Positions 25,313 to 58,697 of a stretch of DNA of 64,000 nt are shown here, in pieces (position 1 is the first letter of the stretch; each line of letters starts with the position of its first letter). The notes under the pieces are model-generated. The model was given only the letters and a program-made list of their open reading frames with translations, searched no databases and was not told the origin of the DNA. The position numbers were made by a program, and so were the translations under genes. The DNA is from Gammaproteobacteria bacterium (GTDB taxonomy: Bacteria; Pseudomonadota; Gammaproteobacteria; JASBUN01): positions 1 through 64,000 of the forward strand of contig JASBUN010000043.1 of assembly GCA_030147845.1 (NCBI GenBank). The letters run 5' to 3'.

Positions 25313-25750
25313 CTAATTTTTCATCATGAGCTGCTGCTGCTCGATCATCTGCTCCATCATCTGCTGCATCATATCCATGCGTTGTTGCATCATCTGCACA
25401 CTAGGCTGCGCACTCGCCGCGCCGCCGGAACCCATCATGCCGGCTTGCCCCTGACCCATGCCGCCGCCGGAACCCATCATGCCGCCATGACCTTGCCCCA
25501 TGCCGCCGCCTGGCCCCATCATGCCGCGCATGGCACCCATCTGCTCCTGCATTATGCCCATATGCTGCTGCATCAGTTGGCGGCGTTTATCAGCGTCGTG
25601 AGTTCCCTGCGCCTGCTGCATCATGCCTTGCATCTGCTCAAACCGCTGCTGCATCAGCGCCGCGCTTGGGTTCGAGCCGTGTTGTGCAGCCATACCCGGA
25701 ACGGCGGCAAGCGCCAACGCAGCCGCGGCGATCAACGTGTACATCTTCAT
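25313..25750 (-). CDS. Methionine/glutamine/glycine-rich secreted protein
   Basis: A 145-residue protein with a signal peptide (cleavage near AAQHG) and about 30 methionines, many in pairs. The middle holds two 14-residue repeats of the type MMGxGGGMGQGxxG, flanked by Gln/Met-rich helices. Clustered methionines bind Cu(I) or Ag(I) in several periplasmic copper proteins, so metal buffering is a fair inference; no recognised domain proves it. The ATG is placed by the signal peptide. A similar but not identical protein is encoded at 59460-59864. Confidence 0.8.
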   Translation of the reverse strand: MKMYTLIAAAALALAAVPGMAAQHGSNPSAALMQQRFEQMQGMMQQAQGTHDADKRRQLMQQHMGIMQEQMGAMRGMMGPGGGMGQGHGGMMGSGGGMGQGQAGMMGSGGAASAQPSVQMMQQRMDMMQQMMEQMIEQQQLMMKN

Positions 25751-31419: not shown

Positions 31420-33942
31420 ATGAGAGAAATTGAAATCGGCATCCAGGGCATGACCTGCGCGTCATGTTCGTCACGCGTAGAGCGTGCATTGAATAAGCTT
31501 CCCGGCGTCGACAAGGCCTCCGTCAACTTGGCCACCGAGCGCGCCCAGGCATTCTTCGACGAGGCCCAACTCACTACTGCGCAAATTGCCGATGCCATAC
31601 GCGAAGCCGGTTACACACCGGTGTTGGCCGAGGATGAAATCAGCATTCAGGGCATGACTTGCGCCTCCTGTACAGCGCGCGTGGAACGCGCTCTGCGACA
31701 ACTGCCGGGTGTGCTGGAGGCGAACGTCAATTTGGCCACCGAACGTGCGGCGGTGCGTTATCTGCCGGCCATGACGGACACGGCGCAGTTTGCGGCCGCC
31801 ATTCGCGAGGCCGGCTATGAAGCGCGCACGGTCGACGACGGCGCCGATCGTGAGGACGCCGAGCAGGCTGCGCGCGCGCAGGCGTTGGTGTCCATGCGCC
31901 GCGATTTGTGGATAGCCGCTATCCTGACACTGCCGGTGTTGTTGATCTCCATGGGTAGCGCCTTCTTCCCCGGTGTCGAGCACATGCTGCAGGCGGTCGT
32001 TCCTTCGGCGAAGTTTTGGGACTGGACCGAGGCGCTGCTTACGACGGTGGTACTGTTCGGACCCGGGCGGCGCTTCTTTCGTCCCGGCTGGATCGCCTAC
32101 CGCCATTGGTCGCCCGACATGAACAGCCTGGTCATGACCGGCACCGGCGCCGCGTGGTTATATGGCGTGGTCGTGCTGTTGTTCCCGAGTTGGTTTCCGC
32201 CCGAGGCGCGCAATCTGTATTTCGATTCGGCCAGCGTGATCATTACGGCCATTTTGCTCGGTAAATTCCTCGAGGAATTGGCCAAGGGACGCACGTCGTC
32301 GGCGATCAAGAAACTGATCGGATTGCAAGCCAAGACTGCACGCGTCGTGCGCGACGGCGTCGAACAGGACGTGCCTATTTCCGAGGTGAGCACCGGCACG
32401 ATGCTGTTGGTGCGCCCGGGCGAACGCATGCCGGTCGACGGCGAGGTGCGTGACGGCGAAAGTTACGTCGATGAATCCATGCTCACCGGCGAGCCGGTCC
32501 CGGTCGCCAAGCGCGCCGGCGACCGCGTGGTCGGCGGCACCGTCAATCAGCATGGCGTACTCACGATCGAAGCCACACAGGTCGGAAAGACGACCATGCT
32601 GGCGCAGATCATCCGCCTGGTGGAGCAGGCCCAGGGTTCAAAATTGCCCATCCAAGGACTGGCCGATCGCGTAGTACGGGTGTTTACCCCGACCGTGCTT
32701 GGACTTGCCACTATCACCTTCATCGCTTGGATGATGTTCGGTTCGTCACCGGCGATTACGCTGGCGCTGGTCAGTACCGTGGCCGTGCTGGTAGTGGCCT
32801 GCCCTTGCGCCATGGGACTGGCGACGCCGGCGGCCATCATGGTCGGCACGGGTCGTGCCGCCGAGTTGGGTGTGTTGTATCGCAAAGGCGAGGCGCTGGA
32901 GTATTTGTCGCATGTAGACACCGTGGTGTTCGACAAGACCGGCACGCTGACCGAAGGCCGTCCGCGCCTCACCGACATGGAAACCGTCAGCGGCGACCGC
33001 GACCAAGCCTTGCGCCTGGCCGCCGCCGTCGAGGCCGGCAGCGAACATCCGCTTGGACTGGCCATCGTCGAAGCCGCGCGCGAGCAGGGACTGAGCTTGC
33101 CCCCGGTCAGCGCCTTTAAGGCCATACCGGGCTACGGCATCCAAGCACAAGTCGACGGACGCAGCATTCTGATCGGTGCCGAACGCTTCATGCAACGCGA
33201 ACATATCGATATCAGTACGGTCACGGCGTCGGCTACCAATGTGGCCGGCGACGGCAAGACACCGATATACCTGGCTGCTGATGGACGATTGCTGGCCATG
33301 CTGGCGGTCGCCGATCCGCTCAAAGCGGAATCGGTCGCAGTGGTTTCGGAACTGAAGCAGCGCGGCTTGCAAGTCGTCATGCTGACCGGCGACAGCAAGC
33401 GCACCGCCGAGGCGATTGCCCGCCGCGCCGGCATCGAGCGCGTCGAAGCCGAGGTCTTGCCGGACGGCAAAGCGGCTGCCGTCAAGACGCTACAGCAACA
33501 AGGCCGCAAGGTGGCTTTCGTCGGCGACGGTATAAACGATGCGCCGGCGCTGGCGCAGGCCGAGGTCGGTATCGCGGTCGCGTCGGGCACGGATATCGCC
33601 ATCGAGGCGGCCGACGTCACCTTGACGCGCGGCGATCTGTCCGGCGTGGTCACTGCGCTAGACGCCGCCAAACGTACCATGTCAACCATACGCGGCAATC
33701 TGTTCTGGGCGTTTTTCTACAACATACTGCTGATCCCACTGGCCGCCGGCGTGTTCTATCCGTCCTTCGGCTGGCACCTCAACCCAATGGTCGCGGGCCT
33801 TGCCATGGGGCTATCGAGCGTGTTCGTGGTCAGCAACAGCCTGCGCCTGCGACGCCTGCGCGCCGCGGTACTGCATCCGAGCGGTGATTCGAACCACACG
33901 GCGCTCGGCCACGACGCCGCCGAAGCCCGCACTGCGCATTGA
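31420..33942 (+). CDS. copA: Cu(I)-exporting P1B-type ATPase
   Basis: An 840-residue P-type ATPase. Two N-terminal HMA domains carry GMTCASC each. The transport motif CPC is at 461-463 ([15 protein letters not shown]), the phosphorylated aspartate at 505 in DKTGTLTEG, the SEHPLGLAI nucleotide site and [13 protein letters not shown] hinge follow. The last membrane pair keeps a YN and an [13 protein letters not shown] pattern typical of copper pumps. It exports Cu(I) from the cytoplasm. It sits between merR and copZ in one operon. Confidence 0.96.
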
Positions 33943-38551: not shown

Positions 38552-39220
38552 ATGACTATGTCAAGTAACTCATTCAAACAGGATCTATTCGTCCAGTTCG
38601 GTCACGTCGCAAAAGCGCTTGGTAGCGGCAAGCGATTGGAATTATTGGAATTTTTGGCGCAAGGAGAGCGTAGTGTCGAAGCGCTCGCCAATGTCGCCGG
38701 ATTGTCCATGACCAATGTCTCACACCATCTACAGCAATTGCGGCGCGCCGGTCTGGTCGAGGCCCGTAAAGACGGCCTGCGCGTGTTTTATCGTGTCGGC
38801 GGTGACGACGTTGTCCAGCTCCTGAGCGACCTGCGCCGCGTGGCCGAGCGGCGCGTCGGCGAGGTGGACCGCCTGGTGCGGACCTACCTCACGGTCAAAG
38901 ACGACTTGGAGCCGATCTCGCGTCAGGAATTGCTGGTGCGCGTACGCGATGGCTTGGTTGCGGTCCTCGATGTCAGACCGGCGGAAGAGTACGCATCGGG
39001 TCATGTGCCGGGCGCGGTCAACGTACCCCTGGCAGATCTGGAACGGCGTCTGGCCGAAATGGATATCGATCGCGAAGTCGTCGCCTACTGCCGCGGCCCG
39101 CACTGTATTTTGGCGTTCGAAGCGGTACAGAAACTGCGCGCCCGCGGACTCAGCGCGCGGCGTATGGAAGATGGCTTTCCCGAATGGAAAGCACATGGAT
39201 TACCAGTCGAGACGGATTGA
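38552..39220 (+). CDS. ArsR-family repressor fused to rhodanese
   Basis: A 222-residue protein: residues 10-100 are an ArsR winged helix (LSMTNVSHHLQQLRRAGLVEARK), residues 120-220 a rhodanese domain with Cys180 and Cys185 in YCRGPHC. It lacks the ArsR arsenic cysteines. Fusion of this kind, together with VTT-rhodanese and a membrane hydroxylase nearby, suggests a regulator that senses persulfide or sulfide. It is divergent from those genes with one palindromic operator between. A paralogue is at 52032. Confidence 0.88.
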   Translation: MTMSSNSFKQDLFVQFGHVAKALGSGKRLELLEFLAQGERSVEALANVAGLSMTNVSHHLQQLRRAGLVEARKDGLRVFYRVGGDDVVQLLSDLRRVAERRVGEVDRLVRTYLTVKDDLEPISRQELLVRVRDGLVAVLDVRPAEEYASGHVPGAVNVPLADLERRLAEMDIDREVVAYCRGPHCILAFEAVQKLRARGLSARRMEDGFPEWKAHGLPVETD

Positions 39221-39392: not shown

Positions 39393-40169
39393 TCACCGCA
39401 AATCGATTGCGACCAGCCATTCATGCCTGAACGCGCGCTGGAGGATCGTCGCCACTATCTGTTCCGCGTCGGCAGCGGATCGACACGGCAGCCGGTCACA
39501 GATGGTTTCTAACGATTCACCAGTACGCAACCCGTCGAGCAGGCAACGCTCGTTCTCATCGATGCTTACGGCCATGACGCGTCCGCGGTAACGCCATACC
39601 ACGATCGCGGCCGACGTCGCCGCCTTTAGCTGCGGCGGATGCCGGCCGGCGCGTACCGCCCGCCATACCGACAGCGCATTGCTGTTCATTGCTGGAAATG
39701 ACAATGACGGGCTGCAGCGAAAATGCAGTTGTGGCCATTGCTCCGCGGGCAGCGCCGCCAACACCGCCGGCGACAAGGCCGGCGCATCGGCCGCATCGAA
39801 AGCAATAAGCGCCGCCCATTCAAGCGCCGCCAGATCCGCCCAAAGCGGAAAGCCCTGGCGTTCCAGCCAGTCGCAGAGGTGGTCGCCGAGATCACGAACG
39901 CTAGGTGATGTCGAAGGGCATGCGCGTATATAAGCCGCCATGTGGCGCCCGAACTCGCCTTCGCCAAGCACCGCGAGTAACACCGGAAAATAATAGGCAA
40001 GCGCCTCTTCCAGCCGCATATAATAGGCGTTGCGGTAAACTTGCAAGCGTGTGCGCGCATCGGCCATACCAGCCGTACTGATCTGCGCGGCGAGCGCGTC
40101 CTCGTTACTACCTTCGATCAAGAAAGTCTTGAAGTGGGTTTGCCACTGGCGTAGCGCGGATGAGTTCAC
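39393..40169 (-). CDS. DUF2063 partner protein of the MNIO enzyme (BufC/HvfC-like)
   Basis: A 258-residue protein with the DUF2063 N-terminal helical domain (RLQVYRNAYYMRLEEALAYYFPVLLAVLGEGEFG) and a C-terminal domain ending in a winged-helix-like segment. DUF2063 proteins pair with DUF692 enzymes and are thought to present the precursor peptide for modification. The GTG at 40169 overlaps the upstream stop in a GTGA, typical of coupled genes; a GTG three codons earlier is also open. It is the last gene of the mercury operon. Confidence 0.88.
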   Translation of the reverse strand: MNSSALRQWQTHFKTFLIEGSNEDALAAQISTAGMADARTRLQVYRNAYYMRLEEALAYYFPVLLAVLGEGEFGRHMAAYIRACPSTSPSVRDLGDHLCDWLERQGFPLWADLAALEWAALIAFDAADAPALSPAVLAALPAEQWPQLHFRCSPSLSFPAMNSNALSVWRAVRAGRHPPQLKAATSAAIVVWRYRGRVMAVSIDENERCLLDGLRTGESLETICDRLPCRSAADAEQIVATILQRAFRHEWLVAIDLR

Positions 40170-41002
40170 GCTACGCACGCGCCTTGCGCGATAACTCGCG
40201 CGCGGTCCAACTCCTGCACCAGTTCGGGCAATGGCGGTATGTGATCATCGCGCTCGATCATGGTTGCCACCGGCCCGAATCGACGTAACGCCTGCACGTA
40301 TAGCGTCCACACCGATGTCGCTATAGCGTGATCGTGCGTATCGATCTTCAGCGGCCCTTGCTCGCTGTGACCGGCGAGATGCAGTTGGCGTACACGGTCG
40401 GCAGGCACGGCGTGCAGATATTGCAGCGCGTCGAAGCCATGATTGTGCGCACTGACGACGATATTGTTTAAATCGAGCAAAATATGGCAGTTTGCTGCGC
40501 TAGCGACGGCCGACAAAAATTCCCATTCAGGCATCGTGCCGCCGGCACATTCGGCATAACTGGAAACATTTTCGATCAGAATGCGGCGCCCGAGCCGCCC
40601 CTGCACCACCTCAATGCGACGGGCCACATGCTCCACCACCTCGTCCGTATACGGTAGCGGCAACAGGTCATGCAAATAGTGTCCGCCGTGCCGAGTCCAG
40701 CATAAATGATCGGAAATACGCACCGCTCCGGCGCGCTCGTCCAGTGCCGCCAGGCGATCGAGGTAAGCTGTGTCCAGCGGCTCGGAGCCGCCGAGATTCA
40801 TGGACACGCCGTGCAACGCAAGCGGGTAACGGCTTGCTACGGCGTCGAGCACCTGCAGAGCATTACCGCCATCGACCATAAAATTCTCGCTCAGCAGTTC
40901 GAGCCAGTCGACCGCCACCTTGCCCTCGGCGGCGTCCTGATAAAACGCCGGGCGCAGCCCCAGGCCGAATCCGCTTGCCGCTCGTTGGCTGTCCGCAGCC
41001 AT
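40166..41002 (-). CDS. MNIO (DUF692) iron enzyme, BufB/MbnB-like
   Basis: A 278-residue TIM-barrel protein of the DUF692 family, multinuclear non-haem iron-dependent oxidative enzymes. Metal-binding motifs in order: ALHGVSMNLGG, ISDHLCW, LIENVSSY, LLDLNNIVV, LHLAGH and DTHDHAI. Known members (MbnB, BufB and others) modify cysteines of ribosomal peptides, often giving copper-chelating groups. It begins four bases after the disulfide reductase and is coupled to DUF2063. I chose the ATG at 41002 because earlier codons overlap the upstream gene and show no homology. The likely substrate is the Cys-rich tail at 42511. Confidence 0.93.
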   Translation of the reverse strand: MAADSQRAASGFGLGLRPAFYQDAAEGKVAVDWLELLSENFMVDGGNALQVLDAVASRYPLALHGVSMNLGGSEPLDTAYLDRLAALDERAGAVRISDHLCWTRHGGHYLHDLLPLPYTDEVVEHVARRIEVVQGRLGRRILIENVSSYAECAGGTMPEWEFLSAVASAANCHILLDLNNIVVSAHNHGFDALQYLHAVPADRVRQLHLAGHSEQGPLKIDTHDHAIATSVWTLYVQALRRFGPVATMIERDDHIPPLPELVQELDRARVIAQGACVA

Positions 41003-41006
41003 GCGT

Positions 41007-42359
41007 TCAGGGCAGCATGGACTCGAGATCGGAAGCGCCGGTCGGATAGGCGAAGGTGGCATAAACGAGATCCTTTGCCTTAAGGCCGGAACGCATCGCA
41101 AAGCCAAAAAGATTGACGATTTCGACCGCGTCCGGACCGACGACATGCGCCCCAAGTACGCGCTCGCTACCTTCTTCGACCAGCACCTTGAAGGCGTATA
41201 AGGACTCGTTCACACGCCGGGCGCTGTACCAGTCCGGCACCGATTCATGCCGTACTCGATATTTCAGACCTTGTTCCTTGGCCTCTTGCTCCAGCATCCC
41301 GACGCGGGCGAGCGTTGGAATGGAAAACACGGCGCTGGGGATGCCGGTGTAGTCCACCGTGGCATGATTGCCTTGCAGCAAATTGCTGGCCACCGCGTTG
41401 GCTTCCAAGGCCGCTACCGGAGTCAGCGGCAGCGGCGGCGCACCGGCATCGCCGGCGACGTAGAGCGCCGGATTGCTGGTACTTTGTAGATATTCGTTGC
41501 GCGCGATACGGTAGCCGTCGTAATCGACCTGCGCCGCTTCGAGATCGAGTCCCGCCACGGCCGGCACCCGGCCGCCGCTGTGTATCACGGCATCCGCCTG
41601 AAGCACGACTTCACCGTTGGGCCCGACGGCCCGCACTTCATAACCGGCATCGCGCTTCGATACCGCCTTCGCTTCGTGACCGTTCAGCACTTTTACGCCG
41701 AGACGCTCGGTGCGTTCCACCAAGCCGGCCACCAAATCGGGATCGAACGGCTTCAACGGCCGAGCACCGCGATTGACAATCACGACCTCGGCGCCGGCGC
41801 GGGCTGCCACATGGGCGAACTCGAAACCGATGAAGCCACCGCCAATCAAGACCAAACGCCGCGGCAGTTGTTCCAATTCCAGAAAAGCATCGCTGTACAT
41901 CAGGTGTTCTACGCCCTCGATCGGCAACGGCACCGGTTCGGCGCCGGCGGCGATGACGACGTGTCGTCCTTCCAAGATATCATTGCCGATTTCGATTCGT
42001 GTCGATCCGGTAAAGCGCGCATGCCCGTGAAAAGTGGCAATGCCGGCGCGCTCAAACATGCTTTCGCGACGTTTCGGCACGGGGTCAGTGAACGAACGTT
42101 TAAAGCGTTGCAACGCCGCCCAGTCGAGCGAGATGTCGCCGCGCGCGATACCTTTATCGGCCATACGGGCGACGCCATCGATGACTTCAGCCGCGCCCAC
42201 CAGCATTTTCTTCGGGTCGCAGCCGCGCAAAGCGCAAGTGCCGCCAAAGGGAAGATGATCCACCACGGCGACCGACCACCCTGCCTCGCGGCAGCGCGTT
42301 GCGCTTACCGCCGCGGCTGTACCTGTGCCAATCACGATCAGATCAAATGAAGTAGTCAT
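41007..42359 (-). CDS. FAD-dependent disulfide oxidoreductase (MerA/glutathione-reductase family)
   Basis: A 450-residue two-dinucleotide-binding flavoprotein. The FAD motif is near the start (DLIVIGTGTAAA), the redox pair is Cys42-Cys47 in GGTCALRGCDPKK, the NAD(P) motif in LVLIGGGFIGFEFA, and YVAGDAGAPPLPLTPVAALEA before the dimer interface. The cysteine pair has four residues between, as in MerA and GR, but the MerA-type C-terminal cysteine pair is missing, so it is not a second mercuric reductase of the classical kind. GGAG is seven bases before the ATG. In this operon it might reduce a thiol partner of the MNIO product or reduce the metal. Confidence 0.88.
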   Translation of the reverse strand: MTTSFDLIVIGTGTAAAVSATRCREAGWSVAVVDHLPFGGTCALRGCDPKKMLVGAAEVIDGVARMADKGIARGDISLDWAALQRFKRSFTDPVPKRRESMFERAGIATFHGHARFTGSTRIEIGNDILEGRHVVIAAGAEPVPLPIEGVEHLMYSDAFLELEQLPRRLVLIGGGFIGFEFAHVAARAGAEVVIVNRGARPLKPFDPDLVAGLVERTERLGVKVLNGHEAKAVSKRDAGYEVRAVGPNGEVVLQADAVIHSGGRVPAVAGLDLEAAQVDYDGYRIARNEYLQSTSNPALYVAGDAGAPPLPLTPVAALEANAVASNLLQGNHATVDYTGIPSAVFSIPTLARVGMLEQEAKEQGLKYRVRHESVPDWYSARRVNESLYAFKVLVEEGSERVLGAHVVGPDAVEIVNLFGFAMRSGLKAKDLVYATFAYPTGASDLESMLP

Positions 42360-42510: not shown

Positions 42511-43221
42511 TCACCCTTTGGACGGGTCACCTGGTGAACCCTTGAGCGGTTCACCGCCGCGCGCGTAGCATTCCTTGGCGGGCACATAGATATAGCCCTT
42601 GCCTTTGCAACTGTTTTGACCGGTACAAGCGTTGAAGGCGGTGCTGCAAGCCCCTTGCCCCTTGCAACTGTTGATACCCCAGCAAGCAATCTGCTCGCCG
42701 TGCGCCTGCGGCGCAATGGCTTGCACTGACTTATACAGTCCATAAAATGCCACCGCCGCGCCCGCGCTCAAGGCAGCGCCGGTCACGGCTCGCCGGCCGG
42801 GATTAGCCGCGCCTGTGGACGGCGCTGTCGCCGCCTGATCAGGCGCGCATTGCGGTGCGCGGCGGCCGCGGACGAAATCCCAGACGCTGCCGGCGAACAG
42901 CATGGCCAAGCTCGTATACACCAGCCACGCAAGCGGAAAGATTCCGGTTACCATGAACCATAGAGCGATAGACCCCACTACGCCACCGACCAGACTCAAC
43001 CAAAATGGTTTCAGGTCATCGTGGCGGCGCGCCGAACGGAACAGCAGCCACAAGCTGAGGGCGATAAAACCCACGAATATAGGAAACAAATAAGCGTCAT
43101 AGGCGACGAATCCGAGGCCCACCGCGCCAACTGCGGCGAGCACTGCCGAAATTCCCAGACAACACGCCGCCGCAATTGCCGCACCGATCATGCCGGAAAT
43201 TTGTTTTAGCAACTCGATCAT
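42511..43221 (-). CDS. MerC-like membrane protein fused to a bufferin-like Cys-rich domain
   Basis: A 236-residue fusion. Residues 1-120 resemble MerC: four hydrophobic segments with a Cys-Cys pair (20-21) in the first and ending SVWDFVRG. After a linker with one Cys (125), residues 143-165 form a fifth hydrophobic segment preceded by Arg-Arg. The tail (175-236) has six cysteines at 180, 186, 192, 199, 205 and 218 in a KGQG/TGQN/KGKG pattern, resembling DUF2282/BufA2-type bufferin precursors. The downstream MNIO and DUF2063 genes are the usual modifying partners. If MerC topology holds, the fifth helix would place the tail in the periplasm. Bufferin assignment is an inference from pattern and context. 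Confidence 0.8.
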   Translation of the reverse strand: MIELLKQISGMIGAAIAAACCLGISAVLAAVGAVGLGFVAYDAYLFPIFVGFIALSLWLLFRSARRHDDLKPFWLSLVGGVVGSIALWFMVTGIFPLAWLVYTSLAMLFAGSVWDFVRGRRAPQCAPDQAATAPSTGAANPGRRAVTGAALSAGAAVAFYGLYKSVQAIAPQAHGEQIACWGINSCKGQGACSTAFNACTGQNSCKGKGYIYVPAKECYARGGEPLKGSPGDPSKG

Positions 43222-43305: not shown

Positions 43306-43815
43306 CTAGACTGAACAGCGCGCGCCGCGTACGACGCGTACGGAGTTTTGATAAAGCGCCAGCGCCAGCAATGCAACCGCTGCCAGCAGCAACTCATTCT
43401 GATGGGTCGCGATAAAACCCTGCAATTGCCAGCCAAAAGCGGTAACCACAGATGGGAACAGCGCGGCCAACGCGCCGAGCGCCAGCGGCAGTAACGGTGA
43501 GCAGCACAGCACCGGTGTCAACACGCCGACCAGCACGCCGCCGGCTGCCGAGGACTTGCTGGCGCCGCGGCCATTGCGCATCAGATAGACCATCATCGGA
43601 ATCAACAAAGCGGTAAGCGACGCCATCACCAGCGCGAATAGCGCCATGGTAACGTCCAAAAATTGCAGCGCCGCCGGACCAATTCGTCCGCCGGTATAAG
43701 CCGCCGGCAAGGTCATGAGATAGAACGCCAACAGTACGGCGAAAGCCGACAGCGCCAGCCAGCGATTACCCTTGCTATGCAGTACGGTCTTCAATGCCGA
43801 CGTAATGGTGCGCAT
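43306..43815 (-). CDS. Hypothetical four-to-five-span membrane protein with Cys-Cys motif
   Basis: A 169-residue integral membrane protein. One transmembrane segment holds the pair in TPVLCCSPLLPLALGALA, reminiscent of the Cys-Cys of MerT/MerC, but overall similarity to those is not clear. It starts MRTITSALK at 43815, one base after the thioredoxin stop, so it is firmly in the mer operon. A role in metal import or redox at the membrane is plausible but unproven. Confidence 0.75.
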   Translation of the reverse strand: MRTITSALKTVLHSKGNRWLALSAFAVLLAFYLMTLPAAYTGGRIGPAALQFLDVTMALFALVMASLTALLIPMMVYLMRNGRGASKSSAAGGVLVGVLTPVLCCSPLLPLALGALAALFPSVVTAFGWQLQGFIATHQNELLLAAVALLALALYQNSVRVVRGARCSV

Positions 43816-43816
43816 G

Positions 43817-44404
43817 TCATTTCCTCTGTGCAAAGCGCTCGATGGTGGCCCAGGTCGCCGCCGGGGCGGTATCCACGACGCGCACGACTCCGTCGGCGCC
43901 GATCAAGTAATAGAGATCAGGAAAATGGCGCGGATTGTAGCGCTGGGCTAACTCCTTAGATGCTTCCGCATAGATCCAGTTCGATTTTTTTAGGGTCTTG
44001 GGCGCGAATTTTTGTCCGAACTGCTCGATACTCATACCCGGGTAGCCATCGTTTTGGAAATTGCGCACCACCAATACGGTAACACCCTGGGTCTTGAGTA
44101 ACTCGCTGTGGCGTTCCAGTGCCTGCACACCGGCGACACAGGTATGACACCACGTGGAGAGCAGCCACAACACCACTTTGTGTCCATGCAGTTGTGCCAG
44201 CGTGCGCGTCTGCGTGCCGGCCTGCATCGGTGCATCCGGCGCACTTGCGCCGACCTCGGGGCCGCCGGTCGAACCGAGCACCCAGGCATACACCGCGCCT
44301 TGCCACGCCAACAACAACAGCAACGCCACCAACCACTTCGATCCCGGCCTAAATTTCAGATCTAGTATCGGTCGGGTCCGCTCACTTGTCCTTGTATTGC
44401 GCAT
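43817..44404 (-). CDS. Membrane-anchored thioredoxin-fold protein
   Basis: A 195-residue protein with an N-terminal transmembrane helix (about 24-44) and a periplasmic thioredoxin-like domain with the active pair in STWCHTC (Cys86, Cys89) and a cis-proline near RHFPDLYYLI. It resembles TlpA/ResA-type reductases. Its place between merA and the two Cys-containing membrane proteins suggests it keeps cysteines of the periplasmic metal-binding parts reduced. It starts 21 bp after merA. Confidence 0.87.
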   Translation of the reverse strand: MRNTRTSERTRPILDLKFRPGSKWLVALLLLLAWQGAVYAWVLGSTGGPEVGASAPDAPMQAGTQTRTLAQLHGHKVVLWLLSTWCHTCVAGVQALERHSELLKTQGVTVLVVRNFQNDGYPGMSIEQFGQKFAPKTLKKSNWIYAEASKELAQRYNPRHFPDLYYLIGADGVVRVVDTAPAATWATIERFAQRK

Positions 44405-44425: not shown

Positions 44426-46063
<1,638 letters not shown>

Positions 46064-46094: not shown

Positions 46095-46406
46095 TCAGCG
46101 CTTCTTAAGATGAGACGGATAACCAGCATCAGTGGTCGCTCGCGTCAGCGCTTCGACTGTCGTCTTGGATGGGTCAAAGGTTACTGTGGCGCTGTGCGAG
46201 TCCATATCGGCACTCGCCTTGGTTACGCCCGGTACGCGCTGCAGCGCTTTGCGCACCGTCACCGGGCAGACACCGCAGGTCATATTCTCGACCGCCAACG
46301 TCACCGTGCGGCTGTGCGCGCTGGTCGAGTCGCTGGCCTGCGCCATCGACCACCACGGAGCAAAGGACAAAATGATCAACAGCGGCGCGAACAATATACG
46401 TTTCAT
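46095..46406 (-). CDS. merP: Periplasmic mercury-binding protein MerP
   Basis: A 103-residue protein with a signal peptide (cleavage near AQA-SD) and one HMA domain, with Cys44 and Cys47 in NMTCGVCPVTVRKAL. MerP binds Hg(II) in the periplasm and hands it to MerT. The ATG at 46406 is preceded by GAGGAG; the longer frame to 46595 overlaps merT and is not real. It lies 28 bp after merT. Confidence 0.96.
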   Translation of the reverse strand: MKRILFAPLLIILSFAPWWSMAQASDSTSAHSRTVTLAVENMTCGVCPVTVRKALQRVPGVTKASADMDSHSATVTFDPSKTTVEALTRATTDAGYPSHLKKR

Positions 46407-46434: not shown

Positions 46435-46788
46435 TCAGAGAATGGCGGTGGCGTAATAGGGAAAAGTAAGCAGAGCCAGCAACAGCGCCGCCACGATCCA
46501 AAAAATGACGCGTTGGTTGCGCAAGGTACGCGGCTCCGCACACGTCGTGCCCGGGGTACATGAGCGCGGCAACAGGTAGAGTTTTCGGAACGCAAGGCCG
46601 AGAAATATCAGTGTGATGGTGATAAAGATCGGCCGGTACGGTTCGAGCGCGGTCAAATTGCTGATCCACGCGCCGCCGACGCCGAGCGTCAACAACACCA
46701 GTGGAGCAACGCAGCACAGCGACGCTCCCACCCCCGCCAAGACGGCGGCGATCAAGGTACGGTTTCCGGTAGTGGCCTGGCTAGACAT
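46435..46788 (-). CDS. merT: Mercuric transport protein MerT
   Basis: A 117-residue inner-membrane protein with three helices. The Cys25-Cys26 pair in GASLCCVAPL lies in the first helix, and Cys77/Cys83 are in the cytoplasmic loop SCTPGTTC, as in classical MerT. It passes Hg(II) from MerP to cytoplasmic MerA. It is the first gene of the operon, 32 bp downstream of the mer promoter. Confidence 0.96.
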   Translation of the reverse strand: MSSQATTGNRTLIAAVLAGVGASLCCVAPLVLLTLGVGGAWISNLTALEPYRPIFITITLIFLGLAFRKLYLLPRSCTPGTTCAEPRTLRNQRVIFWIVAALLLALLTFPYYATAIL

Positions 46789-46820: not shown

Positions 46821-46852
46821 AGCTTAGACTCCGTACTATGGTACGGAGTCAA
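46821..46852 (-). promoter_or_regulatory. mer operator-promoter
   Basis: A perfect dyad GACTCCGTAC-N4-GTACGGAGTC (46827-46850) overlaps a minus-strand -35 TTGACT (46847-46852). TAAGCT (46821-46826) serves as -10 with a 20-bp spacer (19 bp if shifted by one). This closely matches the Tn501/Tn21 merOP sequence. No merR gene is adjacent or divergent from it. Confidence 0.92.
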
Positions 46853-52031: not shown

Positions 52032-52700
52032 ATGAGTGCTTCACGCCAATCCAAGGACCGTTTATACGAACAAGTGGCCCGTATCGGAAAAGCGGTTGCC
52101 AGCCCCAAGCGGCTGGAATTGATCGAGCTACTTTGTCAGTGCGAAAAGACAGTCGAGCAGCTTGCCACCGAAGCCGAAATTTCGGTCAAGTTGGTCAGTG
52201 CTCATTTAAAAGAGTTGAAATCGGCGCAGTTGGTGGCGGCTCGCCGAGACGGCACTTATATGATTTATCGCTTGGCCGACGCCGAAACCGCCGACTTGTG
52301 GGTAGCGCTGCGCTCGGTAGCCGAAGGACGTTTGATCGAATTGCAATCCATTATGCGCGAACTGGCGTCACGACCGCATGAATTGGCGCCAATGAACGGG
52401 CGTGACTTGTTGCGCGATGCCAAACGCGGTGATGTCATCGTCCTCGATGTGCGACCGGAAGCCGAATTTCGCAGCGCGCATATCCCTCACGCCCGATCGA
52501 TTCCGCTGCCCGAACTCCGAAAACGCTTGGGAGAATTACCCGCCGATCGGCCAGTCGTGGCGTATTGCCGCGGACCATTTTGCTTCATGGCGCAGGAGGC
52601 CGTCGCTTTACTCAACAAAAAAGGCTTTCGAGCACGCTCGCTCGAAACCGGTGTGGCGGAATGGCGTGCTGCCGCACTACCGCTCAAAAAAGGGACTTAG
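52032..52700 (+). CDS. ArsR-family repressor fused to rhodanese (second copy)
   Basis: A 222-residue paralogue of the protein at 38552: ArsR winged helix (EISVKLVSAHLKELKSAQLVAAR) and a C-terminal rhodanese domain with Cys179 and Cys184 in YCRGPFC. Unlike the first copy it also has Cys35 and Cys37 in LLCQCEK near the DNA-binding domain, which could add a second sensor site. It stands between the permease operon and a methyltransferase, so it may control one or both. Confidence 0.88.
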   Translation: MSASRQSKDRLYEQVARIGKAVASPKRLELIELLCQCEKTVEQLATEAEISVKLVSAHLKELKSAQLVAARRDGTYMIYRLADAETADLWVALRSVAEGRLIELQSIMRELASRPHELAPMNGRDLLRDAKRGDVIVLDVRPEAEFRSAHIPHARSIPLPELRKRLGELPADRPVVAYCRGPFCFMAQEAVALLNKKGFRARSLETGVAEWRAAALPLKKGT

Positions 52701-55527: not shown

Positions 55528-56191
55528 GTTCGCCGGGCTGCAGCAGATCGCCTTACCGATCGGACTGGGTCTTTTCGGCTTCGTCGAGCCCTGTTCGATC
55601 GGCTCGACCTTGGTGTTCGTCAAGACGCTCGAGGGACGTGAGCGTGCCGCCAAAATACTCCAGGTCACGGTCTTTACCTTGGTGCGCGGCCTGTTCATGG
55701 GCTTACTCGGACTCGCCGCCGCCGCCATCGGCATGGTCTTGTTCGGCGCACAAAAAATCGCTTGGATCGGTTTCGGACTGATCTATGTCGCCCTAGGTGC
55801 AGTCTACCTCGTCGGCAAATCGGCTAGTCTTCTGCGTGCCTTCGGTGGCGGACTCTTGCGACTGTCCGATGTACGCGGTTCGGTCGCGCTCGGTATCGTA
55901 TTCGCGTTCAACATCCCAGCCTGCGCAACACCGTTGTTACTCGCCCTGCTGGGTTTCACCGCTGCCGGCACGGTAGCGCCGAGTAGCGGCTTCCTGTCGC
56001 TGACCCTATTTGGCTTCGCGTTGTCGCTGCCGCTCGTACTCGCAGTGCTGTTCGCGCCGGCCCGGCGCGCGCTGGATGCGCTGGGGGGGTTGTCACGACG
56101 CCTTCCGTTTTGGACCGGCGTTGTTCTGATCGCACTGGGTCTATGGTCGATCTGGTTTGGGCTGTTCGTGCCGGTCGGTCCAGCGGCCTAG
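55520..56191 (+). CDS. CcdA/DsbD-type membrane thiol transporter
   Basis: A 223-residue protein with six helices like the DsbD/CcdA membrane domain. The two functional cysteines are Cys25 in FVEPCSIGS and Cys135 in NIPACATPLL. CcdA proteins carry reducing power across the membrane to periplasmic thiol proteins. Its ATG lies inside the end of the HMA gene, showing tight coupling. In this operon it might keep cysteines of metal-binding proteins reduced. Confidence 0.86.
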   Translation: MTEFAGLQQIALPIGLGLFGFVEPCSIGSTLVFVKTLEGRERAAKILQVTVFTLVRGLFMGLLGLAAAAIGMVLFGAQKIAWIGFGLIYVALGAVYLVGKSASLLRAFGGGLLRLSDVRGSVALGIVFAFNIPACATPLLLALLGFTAAGTVAPSSGFLSLTLFGFALSLPLVLAVLFAPARRALDALGGLSRRLPFWTGVVLIALGLWSIWFGLFVPVGPAA

Positions 56192-56246
56192 CGCTTCAAC
56201 GCGATTGCGAACGTGCGCCAATCGAAAAATTTTCTGGAGGTGTCAC

Positions 56247-58697
56247 ATGACTACCATCACATCGACTCCGGACTCCAACTCATTCTGGAGTGAAGAACCA
56301 TCCAAGCGCCCCGGCCGTGCGCGCATCCGCGCGCGTATTGGCGGACTGCATTGCTCGCTTTGTACCGGCACCATCGAAAAGGCGCTCGGCAAACAGCCCG
56401 GTGTCGACCAAGTCTCGGTCAGCCTGACGCATGAACAAGCGCTGATCGAGTACGATCCGGAGGTGGCGCGGCCCGAGCGCCTGCTGCAAATCCTCAAAGA
56501 TATTGGTTACACCATTTCCGATCCGCGCAAGGTGCGCCCGTTCGAAGAGGATGAAGCCACGCTGGTACGTGAGGGCCGGCGCTTCATCGCCGCGGTCGCC
56601 GCCAGCATAGCGGCGGTGGCGTTGATCGCCAATCCCAGCGGCTTCTGGCCCACGCTGCTGGCCGCGTTGGTATTCGTCAGTCTGGTCGGCTTTGTATTCG
56701 TGGTCCTGCGCGGACGCGGCACCGGCATCGCGCTCGGCGGCGCTGCGGCTTTGACCGCGCTCGGCGGCGCACTCTATCTGGCGCGCAGCGCCGGCTGGAT
56801 GAGCGAAGCTGCTCCCTGGCTAACCGGCGCGCTTGCCCTCATCATGGTGTTCGGCGTCGGCCGGCACATTTTGATCATGGCACTGCAAGCGTTGCGCCGC
56901 GGCATTCTCAATCAGCATGTATTGCTTGAGATCGGCGCGTTCGCCGGCATCGCGGGTGGACTGATCGGTATGATCTTCCATCCGCCAGGTTACCCGACCG
57001 CGCCGTTCTTCGCCGTGTCGGTGATGGTCGCCACCTATCATATTTTCTCGGAATGGTTGTCGCTGATCGTCAAAACACGCAGCTCTCAGGCGGTCAAGAA
57101 ACTGCTCGACTTACAGCCGGACACCGCGCGCGTACTGCGCGACGGTCAGGAACAGGAAATTGCGCTCGAACAAGTACACATCGGCGACCGTGTCCGCATT
57201 CGTCCGGGCGAACGAATCCCGGTCGACGGTCAAGTCGTCGACGGTCACTCGGCGGTCGACGAAGCCCTCATGACCGGGGAACCGACTCCGGTCGAGAAGC
57301 GTGCCGGCGCCGCCGTCATCGGCGGCTCGATGAACGGCCTCGGTACCTTGTTGATTGAAGTCACCCGCACCGGTAGCGAGACCTTTTTGCAACAAGTCAT
57401 TCGTCAAGTCGAGGACGCCCGTGCCCTTAAACCCGGCCTACTGCACTTGGTCGACCGAGTGCTGCGCATCTATACGCCGACCGTATTGGTCGTCGCCGCA
57501 GTGGCGGTTGTTGGTTGGTTGCTTGGCAGCCTGCTGATCGGCGGCCAAATCGACCTGCAGCGCGCCGTTTTCGCCGGCTTGAGCGTATTGGTCATGGGCT
57601 ATCCCTGCGCGGTCGGGATTTCCGCTCCGCTATCGATCGTGCGCGGCGCCGGTGAAGCCGCTGAGCGCGGTATCCTGATGCGCACGGGCGAAGCGTTCCA
57701 GGCCTATCGCTTAGTCACCCATGTTTTGCTGGACAAAACCGGCACGCTGACCGAAGGTCATCCGTCCGTACGCCAGGTGGCGACTCTGCACGGCGATGAA
57801 AGCACGCTACTCGGTTTAGCCGCGGCAGCCGAGTCGTCGTCGGAGCACCCGTTGGCACAAGCGATTCTGGATCATGCCTTCGAACATGGCATCACGCCGC
57901 CGTCGATCGAACAATTTCAGGCCACCCCCGGTCGCGGTGTGCGTGCGCGCGTCGATAATGCCGACATTATCGTCGGCAGTCCGCGCTTCTTGTCGGAGCA
58001 AGGCATCGATCTCGAATCGCTTAACGCACGCGTCGAGGAGTGGGAGTACACCGGACAGACGGTCATTGCGGTTGCCCGCGACCAACAGGCACTCGGCATC
58101 ATCGGCATCGGCGACCGCCTGCGCGAAGACGCCGCCCGCACCGTCGCGGCCCTGCGCAAAGCGCATATACAGCCGGTACTGCTTACCGGCGACAACGAGC
58201 GCGCCGCGCGTAGCATTGCGCGCGAATTGGGCATCGACAAAGTGCATGCCGGTGTTCTGCCGGAACAGAAAGCCGCCATCGTGCGCGAGCTGCAGTCCGG
58301 CGGCAAGGTGGCCATGGTCGGCGATGGCATCAACGATGCGCCCGCATTGATGCAGGCCGATGTTGGCATCGCCATGGGTAGCGGCACCGACATCGCCATC
58401 GAGTCAGCCGATATCATCATCCTCAACGCACGCCTGCGGTCCCTGCTCGATGCGCGCGACATCAGTCGGCGCGGATATCGCAAGATGGTACAAAATATTA
58501 TCGTCGCCTTCTGCTTCAACGGCATTGGCATCCCCATTGCGGCGACCGGCCTGATCTACCCGGTCTGGGCCATGGCGGCCATGGCGGCCAGCGTTACGGC
58601 CATCTTCTTCAATTCACTGTGGGGCAAGCCAGCGCTGTTTTTCGATGCCATAATGAGTGTTGGAGGATCAGCAAAAGCGTCGGCGCGCTCGACGTAG
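56247..58697 (+). CDS. P1B-type heavy-metal ATPase with YPC transport motif
   Basis: An 816-residue P-type ATPase. One HMA domain has Cys36/Cys39 in GGLHCSLCTGTIEKAL. The transport motif in the sixth helix is Tyr452-Pro-Cys454 (LVMGYPCAVGISAPL) instead of CPC, CPH or SPC. The phosphorylated Asp496 is in DKTGTLTEG, with SEHPLAQAI and [17 protein letters not shown] following, so the catalytic core is complete. The specificity is therefore uncertain; loss of the first cysteine should alter metal choice or affinity. ATG at 56247 is preceded by GGAGG. Confidence 0.92.
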   Translation: MTTITSTPDSNSFWSEEPSKRPGRARIRARIGGLHCSLCTGTIEKALGKQPGVDQVSVSLTHEQALIEYDPEVARPERLLQILKDIGYTISDPRKVRPFEEDEATLVREGRRFIAAVAASIAAVALIANPSGFWPTLLAALVFVSLVGFVFVVLRGRGTGIALGGAAALTALGGALYLARSAGWMSEAAPWLTGALALIMVFGVGRHILIMALQALRRGILNQHVLLEIGAFAGIAGGLIGMIFHPPGYPTAPFFAVSVMVATYHIFSEWLSLIVKTRSSQAVKKLLDLQPDTARVLRDGQEQEIALEQVHIGDRVRIRPGERIPVDGQVVDGHSAVDEALMTGEPTPVEKRAGAAVIGGSMNGLGTLLIEVTRTGSETFLQQVIRQVEDARALKPGLLHLVDRVLRIYTPTVLVVAAVAVVGWLLGSLLIGGQIDLQRAVFAGLSVLVMGYPCAVGISAPLSIVRGAGEAAERGILMRTGEAFQAYRLVTHVLLDKTGTLTEGHPSVRQVATLHGDESTLLGLAAAAESSSEHPLAQAILDHAFEHGITPPSIEQFQATPGRGVRARVDNADIIVGSPRFLSEQGIDLESLNARVEEWEYTGQTVIAVARDQQALGIIGIGDRLREDAARTVAALRKAHIQPVLLTGDNERAARSIARELGIDKVHAGVLPEQKAAIVRELQSGGKVAMVGDGINDAPALMQADVGIAMGSGTDIAIESADIIILNARLRSLLDARDISRRGYRKMVQNIIVAFCFNGIGIPIAATGLIYPVWAMAAMAASVTAIFFNSLWGKPALFFDAIMSVGGSAKASARST

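Follow-up and report, generated by a model that had tools for sequence, protein, structure and literature searches.

A MerC transporter with a BufA2-type bufferin tail in a mer operon, and the MNIO maturase lineage linked to such fusions

Introduction

What is a RiPP core doing at the end of a membrane transporter? The question arises from a 64,000-nucleotide stretch of a gammaproteobacterial genome (hereafter the window), in which a MerC-like protein carries a bufferin-like tail. Passages of PMC12452194 and PMC13097082 describe thiooxazoles and copper binding for bufferins, and the former paper reports that free bufferins have Sec signal peptides in place of leaders. A sequence-only reading of the window had called a RiPP precursor within a transporter an unusual layout. 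We confirm the layout, but it is not new, since Antoine et al. (PMC12452194) published MerC|Buf1 and MerC|Buf2 chimaeras in 2025; their main text describes proteins with five membrane segments and the bufferin domain in the periplasm, encoded in a mercury gene context, and also suggests roles for other metals. Their MerC|Buf2 chimaera OOO01496.1 resembles the window protein in its MerC part, in having five predicted membrane segments and a Buf2 tail in the periplasm, and in its mercury-detoxification gene context.

Results

The window protein joins a MerC domain to a BufA2 tail

The fusion gene and its parts, all on the minus strand, are as follows.

42511..43221 (-): merC::bufA2 fusion, 236 aa (Pfam MerC and NCBIfam BufA2 above cut-offs, full-length relatives)
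42847..43221 (-): MerC-type four-helix domain, residues 1-125, with Cys20-Cys21 in helix 1 and Cys125 in the cytoplasmic linker (Pfam, alignment, model, charge pattern)
42715..42801 (-): fifth transmembrane helix, residues 141-169, motif [FL]Y[GA]xY[KRE]SV (alignment, model, charge pattern)
42514..42702 (-): six-cysteine BufA2 tail, residues 174-236, predicted periplasmic, with Cys 180, 186, 192, 199, 205 and 218 (BufA2 profile, alignment, charge pattern)

The open reading frame has an ATG start with a plausible ribosome site (aaggat), and its product contains cysteines at positions 20, 21, 125, 180, 186, 192, 199, 205 and 218, the last six exactly where the earlier reading had placed the tail cysteines. 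Neither the frame nor this cysteine pattern is due to chance, since full-length relatives with 58-68% identity occur in about a dozen other gammaproteobacterial genomes. Residues 10-116 match Pfam MerC (PF03203) with 31.7 bits, above the gathering score of 27.6, and four helices appear in the predicted model, which bears out the proposed MerC-type four-helix part with Cys20-Cys21. The NCBIfam equivalog cut-offs for MerC of the Tn21 type are missed (36.2 vs 170 and 31.2 vs 140). Tn21-type MerC likewise has four helices, a Cys pair in helix 1 and a place in a mer operon, but it is tailless (the NCBIfam models are 123-140 positions long), whereas the window protein is tailed.

For the tail, residues 149-224 reach 73.1 bits against NCBIfam Cu_RiPP_BufA2 (NF050166; curated cut-off 60), in agreement with the bufferin-like character first read from the letters. 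The family had been named there as DUF2282/BufA: BufA2 matches, while DUF2282, which corresponds to BufA1, gives no Pfam match and is thereby ruled out for the window tail, although it holds for the relatives L043 and L045. All six tail cysteines are kept in 13 of 13 aligned BufA2-type fusions, and Cys20-Cys21 in every aligned fusion whose N-terminus is present. Searches of the PDB returned no significant relative of the fusion (MerF 2m67 at E 0.17), and PLSDB plasmids gave matches to the bufferin tail only, without any full-length fusion. Judged by its sequence, the window protein is a bufferin domain in a MerC|Buf2 chimaera and not a free bufferin.

A fifth helix separates transporter and tail

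The AlphaFold2 model (mean pLDDT 61) places helices at residues 2-22/24-37, 43-66, 71-92, 98-121 and 141-169, so that the fifth helix expected from the letters is seen, at low confidence; helix 5 and the tail are weakly modelled and the tail is poorly defined. On average, lysine and arginine counts are 3.1 for loop 2, 4.7 for loop 4 and 0.1 for loops 1 and 3. This positive-inside pattern predicts a cytosolic N-terminus and a tail on the periplasmic side of the membrane.

Free BufA2 (Buf2) shares with the fusion the six-cysteine core, the MNIO and the DUF2063 partner, but it has a cleavable signal peptide and yields a free periplasmic product, whereas in the window the core hangs on the transporter. 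The N-terminal Sec signal peptide of bufferins is absent from the fusion; here the MerC domain and the fifth helix precede the core, and this helix occupies the position of the free BufA2's signal peptide. The earlier reading had raised the possibility that the membrane domain stands in for a leader. Signal peptidase might cut after helix 5 and split the polyprotein into a MerC and a free bufferin in the periplasm, a possibility that gains something from the alignment of the BufA2 profile through helix 5 and from a possible VQA^IA site in the window protein. We hold it to be very improbable: free BufA2 has a classic AxA site directly behind the hydrophobic stretch, where the fusions have a conserved Y[KR]SV instead, and five membrane segments are predicted in the main text of PMC12452194. 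Moreover, a crude motif test found no site at a constant position among the fusions and none at all in two of 15. As no constant cleavage site is seen, we favour an uncleaved membrane anchor as the role of the fifth helix.

One MerC scaffold carries different tails

Two peptide patterns, scanned against 84,980 species genomes, yielded 20 loci. Among 369 evenly sampled gammaproteobacteria, the full fusion was present in five genomes and a methyltransferase form in two more. A MerC scaffold of this kind bears a BufA1 (DUF2282) tail in L043 and L045 (70.8-71.0 bits vs a cut-off of 22.4), and L042 begins a BufA1 tail that breaks off near the contig end. Residues R144, Y160, Y163, S165 and V166 (window numbering) are invariant in BufA1- and BufA2-tailed fusions alike, while the signal peptides of free BufA2 proteins lack this fifth-helix pattern. 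Because the pattern goes with both tail types and is absent from free BufA2, the fifth helix appears to belong to the MerC scaffold, on which tails would have been exchanged.

Tails also seem to have been lost or gained, since the tailless MerCs L046 and L047 group with the tailed L033 (99/90) in a MerC-domain tree, although the domain is so short that only 7 of the 28 inner branches have good support. Both tailless proteins (L046:7001-7423 and L047:1876-2298) stop just before the expected start of helix 5.

Two further arrangements were observed. At L055:661-2093 and L056:658-2073, an ArsM-like methyltransferase stands in frame with MerC, the fifth helix and a Buf2-type tail; these are the only two such fusions among the 369 gammaproteobacteria, L055 runs off its contig, the L056 tail is degenerate, and the MerC Cys-Cys pair is absent in both. 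At L061:1504-1881, in the same genome region as L037, a separate second Buf2 protein is encoded between the fusion and its MNIO; its linker and membrane helix resemble those of the fusions, and it gives the impression of a duplicated tail that has come loose.

The fusion lies in a mer operon

Nine genes follow one another on one strand, with the fusion in sixth place; the other eight, in order, and the site upstream of them are listed here.

46821..46852 (-): MerR-type operator/promoter TTGACTCCGTACCATAGTACGGAGTCTAAGCT, a perfect inverted repeat just upstream of merT
46435..46788 (-): merT (Pfam MerT 131.1 > 32.9)
46095..46406 (-): merP (NCBIfam MerP 106.7 > 92.6)
44426..46054 (-): merA, encoding an N-terminal HMA domain and a C-terminal Cys pair (NCBIfam MerA 578.7 > 454)
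43817..44404 (-): TlpA/ResA-like thioredoxin-fold protein (Pfam Redoxin 36.4 > 26.6)
43306..43815 (-): small membrane protein with an LCCSPLLP motif, without Pfam family, conserved in 4 mer loci
41007..42359 (-): GbsMerA-type mercuric reductase, 450 aa from an internal ATG, active site GGTCALRGCDPKK (best PDB match 8k40, 419.7 bits)
40166..41002 (-): MNIO bufferin maturase BufB, 278 aa from an internal ATG (NCBIfam MNIO_BufB, NF050167, 353.6 > equivalog 310; Pfam PF05114 340.9 bits)
39393..40178 (-): DUF2063/RRE-type partner BufC (Pfam DUF2063 68.7 > 27.2)

In its form the sequence TTGACTCCGTACCATAGTACGGAGTCTAAGCT corresponds to the known mer operator. Its inverted repeat occurs once in the genome, with no occurrence expected by chance, and none of the genes beside it was recognised as merR. 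An operator-like site also precedes the orphan fusion L038, which lies without mer neighbours within 7 kb: this site, at L038:6938-6960 and about 60 bases before the fusion ATG, has three mismatches, again with none expected by chance.

The 41007-42359 product is a homologue of GbsMerA from Gelidibacter salicanalis (PDB 8k40, PMC10587081), with which it has the active-site stretch CALRGCDPKK in common; its second-best PDB match reaches 197.7 bits, as against 419.7. According to PMC10587081, GbsMerA reduces Hg(II) and also, to a lesser degree, Ag. Here the GbsMerA-type enzyme is a second reductase, as the operon also encodes a classical MerA. The BufC gene overlaps the MNIO gene by 13 bases, and its product scores 44.8 against the HvfC equivalog cut-off of 142.

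The small membrane protein, whose LCCSPLLP motif is invariant, possibly represents another metal transporter. In the mer loci L031 and L037 its gene is the neighbour of a TlpA-like gene, and in L030 it lies on the opposite strand. Read mostly by eye, positions 25313-60110 of the window look like a broad metal-resistance island, with ORFs resembling heavy-metal (copper-type) P-type ATPases at 31420-33942 and 56157-58697, an ArsR-rhodanese regulator at 38552 and a similar one at 52032, and Met-rich proteins at 25313 and 59460.

On our preferred reading, which we hold with moderate confidence, the fusion imports Hg(II) as part of a mer operon under MerR-type control, and its periplasmic tail would be a BufA2-type RiPP core that feeds the Cys pair. 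In its favour are the domain matches, the unique operator ahead of the mer genes, the frequent merA upstream of related fusions, the GbsMerA-type reductase encoded between fusion and MNIO, the exclusive clade of fusion-linked MNIOs, the kept cysteines and the charge pattern. The bufferins tested so far in the literature bind copper and not mercury, which counts against this reading. The same fact, reported for the characterised bufferins in passages of PMC12452194 and PMC13097082, would suit a membrane-anchored buffer for copper (or silver or gold) instead, in which MerC serves mainly as an anchor, the tail shields the periplasm and the location among mer genes reflects co-occurring mixed metal stress. 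Such a function could also draw on the copper-type ATPase-like ORFs and Met-rich proteins of the window and on the reduction of Ag by GbsMerA. We consider it unlikely, however, given that merA lies upstream of the fusion in 13 of the 14 loci that have upstream sequence, that MerR-type operators are found upstream, the orphan L038 included, and that the transport Cys pair of MerC is kept in the fusions.

Two features of the mer loci themselves weigh against the preferred reading. MerP already supplies periplasmic Hg(II) binding at the window locus, and the tailless L046 and L047 also sit in mer operons, so that the tail seems dispensable for some of these proteins. Further points against it are the fusion loci without a neighbouring MNIO, five of BufA2 type and two of BufA1 type, and the weak modelling of helix 5 and tail.

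Fusions go with an MNIO lineage of their own

Of 13 BufA2-type loci with 3.8 kb or more of sequence downstream, eight have an MNIO gene there within the same cluster, counting the window and L052; L030 and L032, both among the eight, belong to one genome. The linkage to MNIO genes in relatives on which the earlier reading had staked its proposal is thus found. Neither of the two testable BufA1-type loci has an MNIO next to it. An MNIO is encoded somewhere in all 22 genomes with fusions or sister MerCs; this is weak evidence, because 63 of 94 relatives have one as well.

In a maximum-likelihood tree of 47 MNIOs, all eight fusion-linked proteins fall into one exclusive branch (bootstrap 100, SH-aLRT 99), separate from the free-bufferin MNIOs of the same genomes. 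The branch stayed exclusive after 27 further MNIOs, taken from the best-scoring matches in the 369 gammaproteobacteria, had been added, and the two further MNIOs of the window genome fall outside it. One of these accompanies a free BufA2 (L001, G000:C5:97458-97676), and the other lies beside a BufA1 motif (L028, G000:C67:27885-28667). The candidate metal-site His, Asp and Glu residues are invariant in the MNIOs. By their sequences, then, the fusions go with an MNIO lineage of their own.

The tail might nevertheless be an unmodified, thiol-rich metal-binding appendage, comparable to a tethered MerP, with the MNIO acting on another precursor. Five of the 13 BufA2-type fusions lack an adjacent MNIO (their genomes encode MNIOs elsewhere), and the two additional MNIO loci of the window genome, beside free BufA2 and a BufA1 motif, would be compatible with this. 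But in the window the stretch from fusion to MNIO encodes no second precursor, and the MNIOs of the fusion loci form a separate, exclusive clade, which makes an unmodified tail quite unlikely in our view.

Relative to the account in the main text of PMC12452194, the additions made here are the exclusive clade of fusion-linked MNIOs, which we did not find in that main text; the MerR-type operators; the GbsMerA-type reductase; the exchange of tails, with one MerC scaffold carrying Buf1, Buf2 or no tail; and the ArsM-like methyltransferase in front of the fusion in two genomes.

Discussion

If the fusion is the Hg(II) uptake protein of its operon, as we favour, five steps may be envisaged. MerR-type induction would give one long transcript, for which operator and gene order are seen and co-transcription is presumed. 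The cytosolic MNIO and its DUF2063 partner would then oxidise some of the tail cysteines, probably to thiooxazoles, as the family suggests. Helix 5 would carry the tail to the periplasm and stay as an anchor, which the charge pattern and the model are consistent with. There the tail may bind Hg(II), and perhaps Cu or Ag as well, and hand the metal to Cys20-Cys21, after which cytosolic MerA and/or the GbsMerA-type enzyme would reduce Hg(II), as expected from their families. Since MNIO and partner are presumably cytosolic and the tail ends outside, modification would have to precede translocation of the last segment.

We tentatively suggest, and with some reserve, that the RiPP core within the transporter acts as a tethered mercury ligand that hands over Hg(II), and that the maturase lineage is specialised for membrane-anchored substrates that are modified in the cytosol before crossing. 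The dedicated maturase and the free-bufferin maturase, both present in the window genome, form a natural pair for studying how substrates without an ordinary leader are recognised, and the same pair bears on when the tail of a membrane protein is modified before crossing. Should the tail prove to be modified and to bind mercury, bufferins would extend from copper to mercury, and a RiPP would here be a permanent working part of a transporter and not a free product.
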